Source: a virus
Virus record (IMG/VR): IMGVR_UViG_3300031658_000058
Coordinates: 1 to 32,041 of that record
Length of the DNA: 32,041 bases
Strand: one strand, 5' to 3'
Shown: positions 21,898-29,056 of the stretch, piece after piece
Layout of the letters: every line of letters begins with the position of its first letter
Position numbering within the stretch: the first letter of the stretch is position 1
Translations under genes and position numbers: made by a program
Notes under the pieces: generated by a model
Told to the model about the DNA's origin: nothing
What the model saw: only the letters and a program-made list of their open reading frames with translations
Database searches by the model: none

Positions 21898-22215
21898 ATG
21901 AGACTAAGTGAAATTCTACTAAGAGAAAATAAAGATACATTTAATGACTTCGCCGAAGGAAGAGGTAAGGGAGCAGGTAAGATTGCTGACTCAGCTAAAG
22001 AAAAGGGAGGAGATTCAATGTTAACACATCATCACTTTAATATAAAACTTGCTTATTATAAGAAAGCAGCAGAGGGTAAATTCGATTTAGATAAAGCTAA
22101 AGAAGAATTCACCGCTACTCATAGTAAAATTAACTCAAGTATGGATCCTATATCTTTCCAAAAAGAAATGGGTAGGTTAGAAGTATTAGGAGAGTTAATT
22201 ATTAAGCACGGATAG
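21898..22215 (+). CDS. Hypothetical protein with capsid-targeting-like N-terminus
   Basis: The protein has 105 aa. It is helical and strongly charged (Lys, Asp, Glu), with a His run (THHHFN) at about 43-48 and no hydrophobic segment. The first ten residues, M-R-L-S-E-I-L-L-R-E, fit the pattern seen on the kinase, the HAD protein and the 143-aa protein, ending in an L-x-E site. In T4-like phages an N-terminal peptide of this type targets internal proteins into the prohead and is cut by the head protease after the Glu. A small, charged, soluble body would fit an internal head protein. That is inference. Confidence 0.65.
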   Translation: MRLSEILLRENKDTFNDFAEGRGKGAGKIADSAKEKGGDSMLTHHHFNIKLAYYKKAAEGKFDLDKAKEEFTATHSKINSSMDPISFQKEMGRLEVLGELIIKHG

Positions 22216-22519: not shown

Positions 22520-22951
22520 ATGAAACTAAGAAGTATTATTTTTGAAGGGTTTGAACCAGCAACATCTATTATTAACGGTAAAACATACTCTGTAGACTGG
22601 TTAGGTTCAACAGATACCTTAGAAGAGTTTAAAAAACTTCTTGGTAGAGTACCTGATACTATAAAATCTATTGAAGTACCTACAAACCTAAAGAACTTTA
22701 AATCTGGCAACGATTTTAAATCATTAGAACCAAAAGGGAACTGGAAAGAAGATGTTCTTAATATCATTCAAACAGTTATAAATGATGATAAATCTAAGAT
22801 AGTAGATAGATTTACACTCTCTTCTTATTTCGGAGTAAGTCATATGCCCGGAAAAAATAATACTGACCCAGTATATATACAGTTAGATTCACAATCTTCT
22901 AGAGACTTCGATGCAGACATGAGTGCCGGAAAATACGGACCACTAGATTAA
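22520..22951 (+). CDS. Hypothetical protein with capsid-targeting-like N-terminus
   Basis: The protein has 143 aa. It starts M-K-L-R-S-I-I-F-E, again a short amphipathic peptide ending in an I-x-E site as in four other proteins here. The remainder is soluble, mixed alpha/beta, with no recognisable motif (SIINGKTYSVDWLGSTDTLE, YFGVSHMPGKNNTDPVYIQL). It is the last gene before a hairpin and a new promoter, so it ends the transcription unit that began with the structural genes. If the N-terminal signal is genuine, it would be a packaged internal protein. Confidence 0.65.
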   Translation: MKLRSIIFEGFEPATSIINGKTYSVDWLGSTDTLEEFKKLLGRVPDTIKSIEVPTNLKNFKSGNDFKSLEPKGNWKEDVLNIIQTVINDDKSKIVDRFTLSSYFGVSHMPGKNNTDPVYIQLDSQSSRDFDADMSAGKYGPLD

Positions 22952-23022: not shown

Positions 23023-23946
23023 ATGGAATACGCTTTCCTTTTAGGATCAGTTGAAAATTTACTTGGTAAAAGTCACAAAAGAGCAAGAGCTAATCACGCT
23101 TTTCATTGTCCCTTTTGTAACCACCGTAAACCTAAACTAGAGATCAACATGCATACGAACGAAGAAGGTAAGAACTTCTGGGAATGTTGGGTATGCCAGA
23201 CTAGAGGAACAACTATTAGGTCTTTACTAAAGCAATTAAAAACACCTCGTGATCAAGCAGCAGAAGTATTAAAATACTTACCAAAAGGTAGTGAGATAGA
23301 GTATAAGGGACTATCTATAGTAGAACTACCAAAAGAGTTTCAACTCTTATATGATGCTTCAGATGAATCAATCATTGCTAACATAGTTAAACACTACCTA
23401 TATGAACGAGGACTTAACGACCATGATTTTATTAAATACGGTATTGGATATACAACAGGTGGTGAATATGGAGGAAGAGTTATTATCCCAAGTTATTCTG
23501 AATCCAATCAGCTCAACTTTTTTGTTGCAAGAACTTACGATGGCAACTATTTTAAATATAAAAATCCCGAAGCTTCCAAAGACATAATATTCTTTGAGAA
23601 CTTAATTAACTGGACACAGCCCATAATACTATGTGAAGGAGTATTCGACGCAATGGCTATAAGGAGAAATGCTATACCTATTCTAGGTAAAAGTATATCT
23701 GATTCATTATATAAAAAGATTATCACTTCCCCGCTACAGGATATCTATGTAGCATTAGACGAAGATGCTAAAACTAGAGCATTTCAAATCGCAGAAAAAT
23801 TTCTAAACCAAGGTAAGAGAGTTTACCTTATTAATCTTGAAAGCAAAGATCCTTCCGATATGGGATTTAAGCCTTTCACTCAATTAGTACAAAAAGCAGA
23901 AGAGTTAGACCTACACGGAATAATGATGCACAAATTAGACCTATGA
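23023..23946 (+). CDS. DNA primase, T4 gp61-like
   Basis: The protein has 307 aa. The N-terminal zinc-binding domain is visible (Cys29, Cys32, Cys55, Cys58: HCPFC and ECWVC). The Toprim catalytic domain follows, with Glu205 in IILCEGVFDAMA and the DxD pair Asp246/Asp248 (ALDEDAK). These features belong to the DnaG-type primase core, here as a single polypeptide without a helicase domain, as in T4 gp61. It makes RNA primers on the lagging strand and works with the replicative helicase, which is not in this window. It has its own promoter-like block and a hairpin upstream, and its stop overlaps the next gene by four bases. Confidence 0.88.
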   Translation: MEYAFLLGSVENLLGKSHKRARANHAFHCPFCNHRKPKLEINMHTNEEGKNFWECWVCQTRGTTIRSLLKQLKTPRDQAAEVLKYLPKGSEIEYKGLSIVELPKEFQLLYDASDESIIANIVKHYLYERGLNDHDFIKYGIGYTTGGEYGGRVIIPSYSESNQLNFFVARTYDGNYFKYKNPEASKDIIFFENLINWTQPIILCEGVFDAMAIRRNAIPILGKSISDSLYKKIITSPLQDIYVALDEDAKTRAFQIAEKFLNQGKRVYLINLESKDPSDMGFKPFTQLVQKAEELDLHGIMMHKLDL

Positions 23947-24725
23947 TTAGACAAGGTACAAACATTTTAAAAGAAAATGCAAAAGACAGGTTAGATTACA
24001 ATCCTGATCTGAAACAAATAAACTTCCTCGACAGAAGAGTTTATAAGAGAAGCGAAGGAGTATACTACCCGTCCGTAACAACGATACTCCAATATATGCC
24101 CAAGAATAAGTTTTTTGACAACTGGTTAAAAGATGTTGGGCATAACGCTGATCTTATACTAAGAAAAGCAGGAAAAGAAGGAACACAAGTACATGAAGCA
24201 GCTGAAAAGCTAGTACTCGGAGAAGAAGTAACCTGGATGGACCAATACGGTACAGCAAAATACTCTCAGATAGTATGGGAAATGATTTTAAAATTTGCTG
24301 ACTTTTGGAATACCCACAAGCCTGAGCTTATATCAACTGAGCAATTTATTTGGTCCGATAAGTATAAGTACGCTGGTACTGCTGATTTAGTAGTTAAGAT
24401 GGATGGAGAAGTATGGCTATTAGATTTAAAGACATCTAATGCTTTACATAGAGCTTACGATCTACAATTAGCAGCATATGCTAAAGGAATGGAAGAGGTA
24501 AAGGGAATAAAGATTGAGAGGTCTGGTATTATCTGGTTGAAAGCTCAATCAAGAGGACCTTCAAAACAAAAAGGAGTATACCAAGGAAAGGGTTGGAAGA
24601 TTAAAGATATAGGTAAGATAGATTACAACTTTGATTTATTTAAAACAATATATAAACTGTATTCATTAGAACACCCAACAACTGAACCTATTTATAATAG
24701 CTACCCAACAACAATAAAACTATAA
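23943..24725 (+). CDS. PD-(D/E)XK nuclease, RecB/Cas4-like
   Basis: The protein has 260 aa. The active-site series of the RecB-nuclease family is present and in order: GTQVHEAAE (His84), Glu133, YAGTADLVV with Asp148, LLDLKTS (Asp161, Lys163) and YDLQLAAY (Gln175, the QxxxY motif). Such enzymes cleave DNA ends in recombination or degrade host DNA. It begins inside the primase stop (ATGA overlap), so it is likely translated with primase and works in replication-coupled recombination; this is inference. The lack of a four-Cys cluster argues against a Cas4-type iron-sulphur protein. Confidence 0.86.
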   Translation: MIRQGTNILKENAKDRLDYNPDLKQINFLDRRVYKRSEGVYYPSVTTILQYMPKNKFFDNWLKDVGHNADLILRKAGKEGTQVHEAAEKLVLGEEVTWMDQYGTAKYSQIVWEMILKFADFWNTHKPELISTEQFIWSDKYKYAGTADLVVKMDGEVWLLDLKTSNALHRAYDLQLAAYAKGMEEVKGIKIERSGIIWLKAQSRGPSKQKGVYQGKGWKIKDIGKIDYNFDLFKTIYKLYSLEHPTTEPIYNSYPTTIKL

Positions 24726-24728
24726 AGT

Positions 24729-25661
24729 ATGAAAAAACTATTATTAACCTTAACATTACTTATATTCGTAAGCTGTTCTACCTTTAGGCTCTCAACTCAT
24801 AATTATGACCCCATATACGGACCATCAGGAGAAGAAATAGAAGTAAAAGTAATTAATAGTCAATGGGAGTTAAATAGAGAGTTAAGAAATAACTTCCAGT
24901 TTAGGTACGACATTGCTCAATATGCACTAAGCCAACCTAGATCATTTGATTGGAATAATAGATTATTAGGTAGAAGGTATAATGTTTATAATTCATATTA
25001 TGGATTTGGATATAGTAACTATTGGAATAGAGATCAAATGTGGAATGATTGGGTGTGGGGATATCCATACGGAAACGGAATAGGATGGTCTTACAGTTGG
25101 AATAACAGAAGATGGTCATCTAACCAATGGGGTAACGGATATGGTTGGAACGGATATAATAACTGGGGGTACGGAAATAGTTGGTATGATCCCTATAATA
25201 GACGTGGATACGCTGCTAACTCTTGGAATAATCGAACTAATTATAATAATAGGAGAAATGTAGCTAGAATGACCGGTAGAAGAGGAGAAGCAATATCAGG
25301 CACTACAGGGAATACCCTAGTTAACCTTACTCCAGTTTCAGAAACCAGAGTAGATAAGATTACTAGAGAACTTAGAAATAAAGATATAAAAGTAAGAGTA
25401 ATAAATAACCCGATTAACAATGATCAAATTAACAGACTTAATATTAGAAGAAACATCGTCCCGACCCAAATTAATAGTAATGGCGGGAGGAGCAGGAGCA
25501 GGGAAATCACACCTATTATCCCAGTTAGGACTACAGTCCCTACCACTCGTCAACCCAGACAAATACGTAGAGGACCAGGACCATCCAGCGTACAACAACC
25601 TGTCAGCCGCAACAGCAGCAGCCAATCGAGAAGCAGCAGCACTAGCAGACGGAAAAACTAG
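24729..25661 (+). CDS. Lipoprotein with N/Y/W/G-rich body and RS-rich tail (Bacteroidetes-like)
   Basis: The protein has 310 aa. Signal peptide 1-15 (KK, then LLLTLTLLIFVS) ends at Cys16 in a lipobox-like F-V-S-C. The middle (about 76-172) is rich in Asn, Tyr, Trp, Gly and Arg (NSYYGFGYSNYWNRDQMWND, SWNNRRWSSN). The C-terminal 80 residues become Pro, Arg and Ser-rich (RQIRRGPGPSS, SQSRSSSTSRRKN). I know this architecture from flavobacterial secreted proteins without established function, so the gene may have been taken from the host. It is placed in the phage replication region, three bases after the nuclease gene. The last 242 bases overlap the kinase gene in a different frame, and the overlap has raised G+C. 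If expressed it would coat the host cell envelope. Confidence 0.72.
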   Translation: MKKLLLTLTLLIFVSCSTFRLSTHNYDPIYGPSGEEIEVKVINSQWELNRELRNNFQFRYDIAQYALSQPRSFDWNNRLLGRRYNVYNSYYGFGYSNYWNRDQMWNDWVWGYPYGNGIGWSYSWNNRRWSSNQWGNGYGWNGYNNWGYGNSWYDPYNRRGYAANSWNNRTNYNNRRNVARMTGRRGEAISGTTGNTLVNLTPVSETRVDKITRELRNKDIKVRVINNPINNDQINRLNIRRNIVPTQINSNGGRSRSREITPIIPVRTTVPTTRQPRQIRRGPGPSSVQQPVSRNSSSQSRSSSTSRRKN

Positions 25662-26352
25662 TTTCGTATGGGATACTACAGCTTCTAACCCTAAGAAGGT
25701 AAAAGAGCTCCAAGACTTGGGGTATGATATCTATATGGTAATGGTGTATGCTCATCCTATGATTGCATACGTATCTAATTTCTCTAGAAAGCGAAGTACT
25801 CCTTCATCAGCAGTCTTTTCAACTTGGCGTAATGTTTATCAACTCATCGGGGAGTACGATAAAATGTTAAATGGTCAACTTGCAATCTATGTTAATGACA
25901 GAGGTAATCAATTTAAAAAAGAAATAGAGTCTTTTGACTTAGCAGCAAGATCAGGAGTAGATGGAGTTAGGGATTATTTACAGAAGTATAATACAGAACA
26001 TGAAGTTGGAGGATCATCATTCTTTAAACCAGTAGAATGGAACGAAGAAGAAGAGAATGAATTTAATACCGCTGCAACTGGAATAGATTGGGACACATCT
26101 AATCGCTCAGAGGATAAAGCCATTAAACAAGCTTTTCTTAAAGCATATAGAAAAAACGGAGTAGGTCCAGGTGCAGATAAACTTAAACTAGCAGTAACTA
26201 AATACAGAGATCAAAAAGTTAATAATAGAAATAAGGCTGATGACGTACTTGCAAATATTGCAGATATGTTATATAGCCCTAAGTTTCAAGAAAAACTAGA
26301 GCATTCTACTCCAAAAGAAGTAGATGCAAAATTACAAGCATTTTTAGCATGA
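25420..26352 (+). CDS. P-loop kinase, zeta-toxin/AAA_33-like
   Basis: The protein has 310 aa. The Walker A motif GGAGAGKS (23-30) lies close to the N-terminus, followed by VNPDKY (44-49) and VWDTTAS (84-90), as in zeta-toxin-like and polynucleotide-kinase-like enzymes. These phosphorylate nucleotide sugars, nucleosides or RNA 5' ends; which applies here is unknown. The first ten residues, M-I-K-L-T-D-L-I-L-E, precede the fold and end in an I-x-E site, like a T4 capsid-targeting sequence. The first 80 codons overlap the lipoprotein gene out of frame. Its stop overlaps the 716-aa gene by four bases. The next genes encode a nucleotidyltransferase fusion and a HAD phosphatase, so the cluster handles phosphates or nucleotides. 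Confidence 0.78.
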   Translation: MIKLTDLILEETSSRPKLIVMAGGAGAGKSHLLSQLGLQSLPLVNPDKYVEDQDHPAYNNLSAATAAANREAAALADGKTSFVWDTTASNPKKVKELQDLGYDIYMVMVYAHPMIAYVSNFSRKRSTPSSAVFSTWRNVYQLIGEYDKMLNGQLAIYVNDRGNQFKKEIESFDLAARSGVDGVRDYLQKYNTEHEVGGSSFFKPVEWNEEEENEFNTAATGIDWDTSNRSEDKAIKQAFLKAYRKNGVGPGADKLKLAVTKYRDQKVNNRNKADDVLANIADMLYSPKFQEKLEHSTPKEVDAKLQAFLA

Positions 26353-28499
26353 TAGCATTATATCCAGGAGCATTTAAACCTCCACATAGAGGACATTTTA
26401 ACGTCATTAAGTCTTTACTTGATGGAACGTATAATGGATCTATATACGATAAGGATAACTATAAAGAAAAAGGTGCAGCTTTACTTGGTGGCTCTACAGA
26501 TAAAAAACCTTCTATTAATAAGGTGATAGTCTTTGTAGGAGGCGGTGAGAGAAACGGTATAACAAAGGAAGAGTCGATGTCTATTTGGAATATTTACGCT
26601 AAACATTTAGGTAATATTGAAATATTAGACGGACAAAAGAATCCGATGTTTGCTGCTAAGGAATATGCACAAGCTAACCCTAAACAGGAGATGGTAGCTG
26701 TAACAGGAATAAGAGGTGAAAAAGATTATGTAGATTTAAGAAGGGTAACTACTTTTAAAAATGCTCCAAACGTTCAAGGATTAGCTTTGGCAGCAGCAGC
26801 AGGATCAGGATTTAGAGCATCAGACTTTAGAGATAAAATATTATCAGGAAACTTAGATCAAATTACGGATTACTTTCCTGAAGCTCTATCAAGCGAGGAA
26901 ATTTTAAGTATATTAACAGATCTTAAAGATAAAATAGTTGCTGAAATCTTAGCAGGTAATATAGAAGGGTTTTTAACAGAGTACTTTGGAGTAAGTGAAG
27001 AGATAGAAACAACCAAAGAAGATAGACCCGAGTATACAGAACAAATAGGCTCTATATTAGAGTATATGTTAGATAAGAAAATGAATATACTACCCTTACC
27101 GGAAGTAAAGGTTAGGTATGATGATGAAAACGCAGAAAACTTCTTCGGTAAAACTGCCTACTATGATCCGAACTCTAAAGAAATAGTATTATATGCCACA
27201 GGAAGACATGCTAAAGATATATGTAGATCTTTCACACATGAAATGGTACACCATATTCAGAACCTAGAGGGAAGATTAAACAATGTACAGACACAAAATA
27301 CTAATGACGACAAAGCTTTATTAGCTCTAGAAGCAGAAGCTTACTTAACCGGTAATCTTACATTCAGAAATTGGGAAGATTCTATTAAGGGTAATAAAGA
27401 AGTGTCTGAAGTAATTACAAATAAAATTGTATGTGATAATTGTGGTTGGAGCTGGAATAAAGAAGACGGAGGAGATGATTTATACATCTGTCATAAATGT
27501 AATAACGATAACACACCTCCTGCTTTAGAAAATTTTAAAGACGGTAAAGTAAAAGGTAAAAGCAAACCAGGTAGAGTAAAGAAATCAGGAGCTAGTTGCA
27601 AAGGTTCTAAATCAGAACTTAGAGCCAAAGCAAAGAAGTACGGAGGAGAAAAAGGTAAAATGTATCATTGGTGTGCTAATATAAAAGAGGGAGTTATGGC
27701 AGAAGGCAAGTATGATAGTATAGTCACCTACTTAACCGGTAGGAGTATTGAAGCGATTAAAAATGCTTTAACAAAGAAATTGCACCATTATAAAGAAGGT
27801 CATTTTGGAGATTCTGCTAAAGAAGATTCTTTAATTTCTATGAAAAAAGAATTAGCAACTCTCTATCCGATTATGATGGTAGAAGTACCAGAAGATATAA
27901 CAAAACAGTTTCAAAAAGATTCTGACTTGTCTTTTGATTACGATTTAAAAGTAATGTTCGTTAAGGGGTTAGACAAGATAATGAGAGATGGTGGAGCATA
28001 CAAAGGAGGTTTAGGTAAAGACGACTCTTGGGAAGAACCTAAAATTGAATTAGAATTTGCAGTTGACCCTTATAATTTTCCTAGAGACTTTGAAGAAATG
28101 TCTGCACAGATATCTGACGTATTAAGACACGAAATAGAACACCTTACTCAAGCTGGAGGAAATGAAAGAGGTAAAGATTTTACTGGAGGAGACTTTAAAG
28201 GTACTTTCGGTACCAAAGAAGAAATGCAAGTAAGAACACTTATACAACAGGGACTAATTGACAACGGGGTTAAATATCTTACCCTACCCTCAGAAATAGA
28301 TGCTAATATACAAGGAATGTACCTAACAGCTAAGAAGCAAAAGAGACCTTTTGTTGACGTAGTTGATCAGTACTTATATGCTTATACAGAACAATTCGAT
28401 GCAGACGGTAATCCGTACTTAACGAAAAAAGATGTAGAAGATGTAAAAAGAGTTTGGTCTTTAAGACTACCTGCTTTAGGTATTAAACAGAAATTATAA
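26349..28499 (+). CDS. Multidomain fusion: HxGH nucleotidyltransferase, two HExxH metalloprotease-like domains and zinc ribbon
   Basis: The protein has 716 aa. Residues 1-180: nucleotidyltransferase fold with YPGAFKPPHRGH (His13, His16) and GSGFRASDFRDKILSG in place of the ISSTxxR box, as in NMN/pantetheine-phosphate adenylyltransferases. Residues about 225-340: a zincin-like domain with HEMVH (297-301) and E-A-E-A-Y (328-332) as the likely third ligand. Residues 362-384: zinc ribbon (CDNC and CHKC). Residues 413-446: a small domain, GASCKGSKSELRAKAKKYGG to MYHWC. Residues 500-716: a second zincin-like domain with HEIEH (594-598). No known enzyme has this set. It overlaps the kinase stop by four bases (ATGA). 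Possible roles are NAD/nucleotide synthesis plus proteolysis, or a polyprotein cut apart later. Confidence 0.78.
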   Translation: MIALYPGAFKPPHRGHFNVIKSLLDGTYNGSIYDKDNYKEKGAALLGGSTDKKPSINKVIVFVGGGERNGITKEESMSIWNIYAKHLGNIEILDGQKNPMFAAKEYAQANPKQEMVAVTGIRGEKDYVDLRRVTTFKNAPNVQGLALAAAAGSGFRASDFRDKILSGNLDQITDYFPEALSSEEILSILTDLKDKIVAEILAGNIEGFLTEYFGVSEEIETTKEDRPEYTEQIGSILEYMLDKKMNILPLPEVKVRYDDENAENFFGKTAYYDPNSKEIVLYATGRHAKDICRSFTHEMVHHIQNLEGRLNNVQTQNTNDDKALLALEAEAYLTGNLTFRNWEDSIKGNKEVSEVITNKIVCDNCGWSWNKEDGGDDLYICHKCNNDNTPPALENFKDGKVKGKSKPGRVKKSGASCKGSKSELRAKAKKYGGEKGKMYHWCANIKEGVMAEGKYDSIVTYLTGRSIEAIKNALTKKLHHYKEGHFGDSAKEDSLISMKKELATLYPIMMVEVPEDITKQFQKDSDLSFDYDLKVMFVKGLDKIMRDGGAYKGGLGKDDSWEEPKIELEFAVDPYNFPRDFEEMSAQISDVLRHEIEHLTQAGGNERGKDFTGGDFKGTFGTKEEMQVRTLIQQGLIDNGVKYLTLPSEIDANIQGMYLTAKKQKRPFVDVVDQYLYAYTEQFDADGNPYLTKKDVEDVKRVWSLRLPALGIKQKL

Positions 28500-28510: not shown

Positions 28511-29056
28511 ATGAAAAAAAGTTTAGTAGATTTATTAGAAGCTTATCCGATAGTGGAAAAAAAAGAATTACCACCGTATAAGATATATTGTGATATGGAT
28601 GGAGTATTAACAGATTTTGAATCGAGATTTGAACATTACTCCGGAATGCATCCACAGGCATATGAGAAAGAAAAAGGAACACCAGCATTCTGGGAGTTAA
28701 TAGATGTTAAAGTTGGAATTGGATTTTGGATAGGAATGGACTTTATGCCTCAAGGCAAACAGTTATGGGATTTTATTATGCCGTATAAACCTGACTTATT
28801 AACTTCTCCTTCAAGACATAACAACTCTAGATTAGGTAAACAGCTATGGGCTAAGAATAACTTAAGTCCGAAGCCAAAAGTAATAATGGCATACTCTAAA
28901 GATAAACAGAGATATGCAAATGAAAATAGTATATTAATTGACGACAAACCGTCTAATATAAACGAATGGGCATCAAAAGGCGGAATAGCAATTAGATGTA
29001 AAAACGGAAACGTTGACCATGTTATAGAAAAACTAAAAGAATTAGGTTATGAGTGA
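28511..29056 (+). CDS. HAD-superfamily phosphatase, 5'-nucleotidase-like
   Basis: The protein has 181 aa. HAD motif I is YCDMDGVLTDF (Asp28 nucleophile, Asp30), motif II is probably LLTSPS (about 97-101), and motif IV is ILIDDKPSN (Asp144, Asp145). The GVLTDF form is typical of 5'(3')-deoxyribonucleotidases and related phosphatases. Substrates would be nucleoside monophosphates or 3'/5' phosphate ends. The first ten residues, M-K-K-S-L-V-D-L-L-E, lie before the fold and end in an L-x-E site, as in the kinase and two small proteins. Upstream AAAAAAAGGTTAT gives one of the few plausible Shine-Dalgarno-like leaders. It overlaps the zinc-finger gene by eight bases. Confidence 0.83.
   Translation: MKKSLVDLLEAYPIVEKKELPPYKIYCDMDGVLTDFESRFEHYSGMHPQAYEKEKGTPAFWELIDVKVGIGFWIGMDFMPQGKQLWDFIMPYKPDLLTSPSRHNNSRLGKQLWAKNNLSPKPKVIMAYSKDKQRYANENSILIDDKPSNINEWASKGGIAIRCKNGNVDHVIEKLKELGYE

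Follow-up and report, generated by a model that had tools for sequence, protein, structure and literature searches.

Spanin genes occur in embedded, overlapped and separated arrangements, and their lipoproteins are Pro-rich with little secondary structure (PMC6139136). In lambda Rz/Rz1 and in the P2-type spanins, the gene of a phage lipoprotein lies in a different frame over that of a second phage protein; both proteins belong to one lysis complex, and the o-spanin gene is the downstream or inner one. Second frames laid over a structured ancestral domain are described as giving disordered products (Rancurel et al., cited in PMC6139136). With regard to length, 84% of the viral overlaps reported are shorter than 50 nt, and the longest shared overlap is 185 nt across families (95% nucleotide identity) and 112 nt across genera (PMC7017920).

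The gene pair considered here lies in a 32-kb viral record harboring T4-type baseplate wedge genes and tail-fibre-like genes, which was analysed over all of its 32,041 nucleotides (the window). Unlike in spanin pairs, the lipoprotein gene is upstream and enters the gene of an unrelated P-loop kinase, with which it shares the catalytic core (Table 1). Among the open-licence papers searched, the nearest precedent involving a lipoprotein is nevertheless the spanin pair, with another partner and another arrangement. As in the overprinted disordered proteins of viruses, a disordered product lies over a structured domain; by contrast with those genes, only a tail is overprinted here, the rest of the gene does not overlap, and relatives encode the tail on its own. 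Overlapping genes are already known; the lipoprotein/kinase case is a new form of them that comparison supports well, translation being inferred.

Both genes proposed by the original prediction exist, and they have 242 nt in common out of frame, with the Walker A and VNPD motifs of the kinase inside the common stretch, as it had claimed. The lipoprotein frame is +2 (equivalent to -1) relative to the kinase, and the kinase frame +1 relative to the lipoprotein. Among the main genes of the window this is the sole overlap above 26 nt, the others measuring 1 to 26 nt, and it is retained in a near-identical contig (L001/L082).

Table 1. Coordinates of the lipoprotein/kinase pair, its motifs and its neighbours in the window
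Feature	Position	Strand	Remarks
PD-(D/E)XK exonuclease-like gene	23943..24725	+	Conserved upstream neighbour of the lipoprotein gene
Lipoprotein gene, 310 aa	24729..25661	+	Lipobox signal peptide, Trp/Asn/Tyr/Gly-rich body, disordered tail
Lipobox Cys codon (FVSC, residue 16)	24774..24776	+	Cys16 invariant in the lipoprotein alignment
Double-coding stretch, 242 nt	25420..25661	+	Read in two plus frames, as lipoprotein tail (~80 aa) and as kinase residues 1-80
P-loop kinase gene, 310 aa	25420..26352	+	Predicted zeta-toxin/polynucleotide-kinase-like fold (Pfam, AlphaFold, Foldseek)
Kinase residues 1-10, MIKLTDLILE	25420..25449	+	Resembles a T4-type capsid targeting sequence; function inferred
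Walker A, GGAGAGKS, kinase frame	25486..25509	+	Within the overlap
VNPD motif, kinase frame	25549..25560	+	Within the overlap
Lipoprotein stop codon, TAG	25659..25661	+	Overlap lengths of relatives cluster nearby, at 230-242 nt
Conserved downstream neighbour gene	26349..28499	+	Shares 4 nt with the kinase gene

Relatives were collected from IMG/VR with the kinase, kinase alignments, a divergent member and the lipoprotein as queries; the loci are metagenome assemblies, ranked by similarity, the best 80 being taken per scan. At least 263 loci with the kinase start, 255 of them complete, gave 91 clusters at 90% amino acid identity, and 90 were analysed after exclusion of one that ends at a contig edge (L060). 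Persistence of the overlap in relatives, a check that the original prediction had put forward, came out positive: among the matches listed, the upstream ORF enters the kinase gene by 158-254 nt, using the frame seen in the window, in 74 of the 90 clusters, and all 74 of these ORFs have a lipobox. Same-strand overlaps are also found in tailed phages (PMC7017920); what differs here is that about 240 nt are still kept at 49-68% kinase identity to the window. The 16 remaining clusters do not overlap. Four of them have no adjoining lipoprotein gene (L197, L224, L249, and L167), and in the other 12 the lipoprotein gene stops no more than about 8 nt from the kinase ATG. Ten of these 12 separate lipoproteins measure about 290-330 aa, each with its own low-complexity tail, and two (L234 and L236) have just 92 aa and no 80-residue tail. 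A Gp23-family capsid gene (PF07068) is present in 6 of 9 large related contigs, and the carriers form a large group of T4-like phages for which metagenomes are the only source. The phages of INPHARED, searched for both proteins, contained neither; in the genome contig collection (genome_contigs) the kinase profile had no match, and the N-terminal part of the lipoprotein retrieved a single MAG contig (L271), where the lipoprotein gene is free-standing.

The kinase has an above-cut-off Pfam match to PF06414 (E 7.6e-10), and its AlphaFold model (pLDDT 88.5) was matched by Foldseek to polynucleotide kinases and zeta toxins with E values of about 1e-5; a PDB sequence search with the kinase profile gave no match. 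Judged from sequence and model, it is a zeta-toxin/polynucleotide-kinase-like P-loop protein, the substrate of which is not known. It departs from zeta toxins in its N-terminus, which is like a capsid targeting sequence, and in its surroundings, where no antitoxin was seen and the neighbours are the lipoprotein gene and a nucleotidyltransferase-like gene. Since the best-known phage overlaps involving a lipoprotein are spanin pairs (PMC6139136), the two genes might be taken for a spanin-like lysis pair, with an o-spanin lipoprotein over an i-spanin. The lipoprotein gene, however, is the upstream one and ends in a disordered basic tail, and its partner, a P-loop kinase, matches soluble kinases in fold. 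A two-component spanin is ruled out by the identity of that partner, established from sequence, model and fold match, which is not an i-spanin with an N-terminal transmembrane helix, and virtually no weight is left to a lysis pair.

A different doubt concerns the kinase start. A Met is found at residue 21, ahead of the Walker A motif, and no strong Shine-Dalgarno sequence precedes position 25420, SD-like sequences being found in 12 of the 74 overlapping lineages; the kinase could thus begin later, for example at Met21, in which case only the lipoprotein frame would be coding at the start and the overlap would be shorter. Yet initiation at 25420 is supported by the 59 kinases compared, in which E10, P16, and K17 are invariant and K3 and I8 nearly so. 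In the model, a helix (residues 4-10) is followed by a low-confidence linker (10-12), and the P-loop fold opens with strand 17-22. Non-overlapping lineages, moreover, use the equivalent ATG directly after the lipoprotein stop. A later start is very improbable on this evidence, and even from Met21 the Walker A motif would remain in the overlap.

Internal, capsid-targeted proteins of T4 carry a short N-terminal propeptide that is cleaved after [LI]-x-E. Among the matches listed, [LIV]xE occurs close to the kinase start in 90 of 91 clusters, and the kinase N-terminus may correspond to a T4-type capsid targeting sequence; packaging and injection, cleavage included, are inferred. As a side observation, proteins starting with a short hydrophobic and basic stretch, like T4 capsid targeting sequences, recur in the window and are possibly packaged: beside the MIKLTDLILE of the kinase, starts ending in [LI]-x-E read MRLSEILLRE, MKLRSIIFE, and MKKSLVDLLE, and the coordinates of this set are 25420-25449, 21898-21930, 22520-22549, and 28511-28540.

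Whether the lipoprotein frame is open for a reason was assessed against a null model in which the kinase protein was fixed and codons were sampled from a pool of the 3' regions of the family's kinase genes. The 74 overlapping lineages have no stop in the lipoprotein frame versus 9.2 expected per lineage, and in each of them not one of the 2000 draws per cluster left that frame uninterrupted along the length seen; in the same frame, the 16 lineages without overlap show 10.0 stops versus 9.5 expected. The frame is therefore open far beyond chance. In a second, codon-choice test, the base at degenerate third positions of the kinase was scored by the lipoprotein residue that results. In the overlapping lineages, stops (0 versus 725 expected) and Cys (0 versus 310 expected) are absent; Phe (observed/expected ratio 0.12), Trp (0.23), Tyr (0.27), His (0.11), and Lys (0.45) are avoided; and Gln (5.1), Val (4.0), Gly (3.1), and Pro (2.4), as well as Asn, are favoured. 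In the non-overlapping lineages, the ratios of most residues are close to 1, the deviations (Gly 0.23, Trp 0.57, and a few others) resting on small numbers. Relatedness of the lineages means that z-scores overstate independence; among 16 overlapping kinases less than 68% pairwise identical, the values remain 0/137 for stops and 0/66 for Cys.

The start of the kinase gene is unusual in base composition: G+C amounts to 115 of 242 nt in the overlap versus 242 of 691 in the remainder of the gene, and third-position T drops from 0.37 to 0.10. The G+C counts of the original prediction (89 of 180 at 25441-25620 and 21 of 60 at 25201-25260) are exact; the rise comes mainly through this loss of third-position T. 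The same figures could be read as a G+C-rich, T-poor kinase start that leaves a second frame open by chance or nucleotide bias, with no second protein, and the residue-level dNN/dNS ratio of the tail, which is not below 1 (see below), would agree with that. Against it, non-overlapping lineages of the same kinase have ordinary third-base use in this region, close to that of the gene remainder (GC3 0.21), along with the expected number of stops. A general nucleotide bias is also not the explanation because the same base is treated according to the residue that it produces: third-position T is retained at 0.5-0.8 if Ser results and at 0.00 if Cys or a stop results, and third-position C is enriched 5-fold for Gln and stands at 0.11 for His. 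Finally, the tail frame decays once the lipoprotein is lost. In L197, from which the lipoprotein is gone, the frame is recognisable but contains four stops and a Cys, whereas the tail of its sister L153 is intact; stops are likewise found in the former tail frame of L166 and L256. An origin of the open frame by chance or bias is already strongly contradicted and is hardly credible, and computation shows the lipoprotein frame to be under selection as a protein, in its amino acid classes and in the absence of stops.

Substitution rates, which the original prediction had proposed to compare between the two frames, support it in part. In the 0.8-0.9 amino acid identity band, the dSN of the kinase is 0.374 in the overlap versus 0.592 in the rest of the gene, a ratio of 0.63, compared with 0.90 in non-overlapping lineages; synonymous change in the kinase is thus moderately reduced, with no reduction among the closest pairs (above 95% identity). 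For the tail, neither of two identity bands revealed purifying selection at the residue level (dNN/dNS 1.10, 0.98-1.22, and 1.48, 1.17-1.91), and the second value exceeds 1. Both dNN/dNS and dSN/dSS were computed in an OLGenie-like manner, and dSS rests on few sites. The tail thus appears to be held for openness and composition, not residue by residue. Hence, the double-coding reading stands as far as conservation of the overlap and selection on the frame are concerned, without the residue-level constraint on the tail. A probability of about 0.9 is assigned to double coding of 25420-25661 with a tail selected mainly for composition and openness, translation of both frames being inferred.

The tail is predicted to be disordered, is strongly basic and consists mostly of Arg, Ser, Gln, Pro, Gly, and Asn; in overlapping lipoproteins the mean net charge of the last 78 residues is about +13, and none of the 74 mature proteins has a Cys beyond the lipobox. 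Among the non-overlapping lipoproteins, those above 200 aa encode tails of their own, with a charge of +11 and a similar Ser, Arg, Pro, and Gly content, richer in Asn. That separate lipoproteins carry tails of like character argues for a tail that the protein requires; the 92-aa L234 and L236, which do without one, count against this. PHROGs and Pfam returned no family for the lipoprotein. In the proposed mechanism, one frame would encode the N-terminus and P-loop core of the kinase and the other the final ~80 residues of a lipoprotein that is exported and would need a long, disordered, cationic, and Cys-free tail; synonymous kinase codons would meet this demand, above all by avoiding third-position T. 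The tail probably serves as an extended cationic arm at the cell surface or in the periplasm, its function and surface exposure being inferred. The overlap might instead regulate the kinase, lipoprotein ribosomes crossing the kinase start and limiting or coupling its translation, with the tail as a by-product. The stable geometry, in which most lineages have about 240 nt between the kinase start and the lipoprotein stop downstream of it, would suit such a role, but regulation does not require a tail devoid of Cys, Phe, Trp, and His, and non-overlapping lineages keep the lipoprotein-kinase order at normal spacing. Regulation as the reason for the overlap is thus unlikely, though less so than the other alternatives.

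The history of the double coding was followed on a kinase tree built only from columns behind the overlap. The overlap state changes at least 11 times, and the lineages without overlap mostly lie nested within overlapping groups; double coding is kept in most lineages and was lost independently in several others. Homologues with a lipoprotein ending before the kinase, which the original prediction had named as grounds for refutation, do exist, but most are nested losses or replacements, and their former lipoprotein frame has roughly as many stops as expected, so that they serve as controls and not as a refutation. In more distant phages (L109, L111, and L271), the lipoprotein and a roughly 30% identical kinase are apart, without overlap. 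Their free-standing lipoproteins end in RRKN and are followed by unrelated genes, the tail being self-encoded, and no kinase relic was shown in the other frames of these three tails. Outgroup rooting places the root near a non-overlapping clade, with weak support and a very long outgroup branch (3.4), and whether one gain with many losses is cheaper than several gains hinges on the gain cost chosen. The likely but unproven history is that the two genes were separate at first and that the overlap was then gained once or a few times and lost repeatedly; it is inferred that the lipoprotein extended into a kinase gene that already existed.

The lipoprotein bodies of the 74 clusters divide by motif into at least two types, A (33) and B (32), with 9 others; along the kinase tree the body type switches 12 times or more, the tail encoded in the kinase gene remaining in place. 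This count depends on hand-made motifs, the split being a loose one, and BLAST clustering put all bodies into one group owing to their low complexity. It is conceivable, although somewhat short of even odds, that the kinase gene is a standing tail donor from which exchanged upstream lipoprotein bodies receive a finished disordered tail, making the overlap a reusable junction.

With many lineages that have the overlap, several that do not and relics in between, the family amounts to a natural experiment on gene overlap, set in large dsDNA phages, in which a need to compress the genome is no obvious driver. It indicates that what keeps a frame open can be the composition of its product and not the sequence. 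Tests of the dN/dS type miss this signal, which the codon-choice test by resulting amino acid finds, and that test could expose further overlaps, so far hidden, whose products are disordered or exported.

Two minor observations concern the surroundings of the overlap. The downstream neighbour of the kinase gene (26349-28499) has an HxGH nucleotidyltransferase-like start and a metallopeptidase-like part (weak DUF6782 match), and its segments match relatives piecewise at varying positions. An antisense ORF of 95 aa is open on the minus strand at 25338-25625 and is likely a by-product of T-poor third positions.
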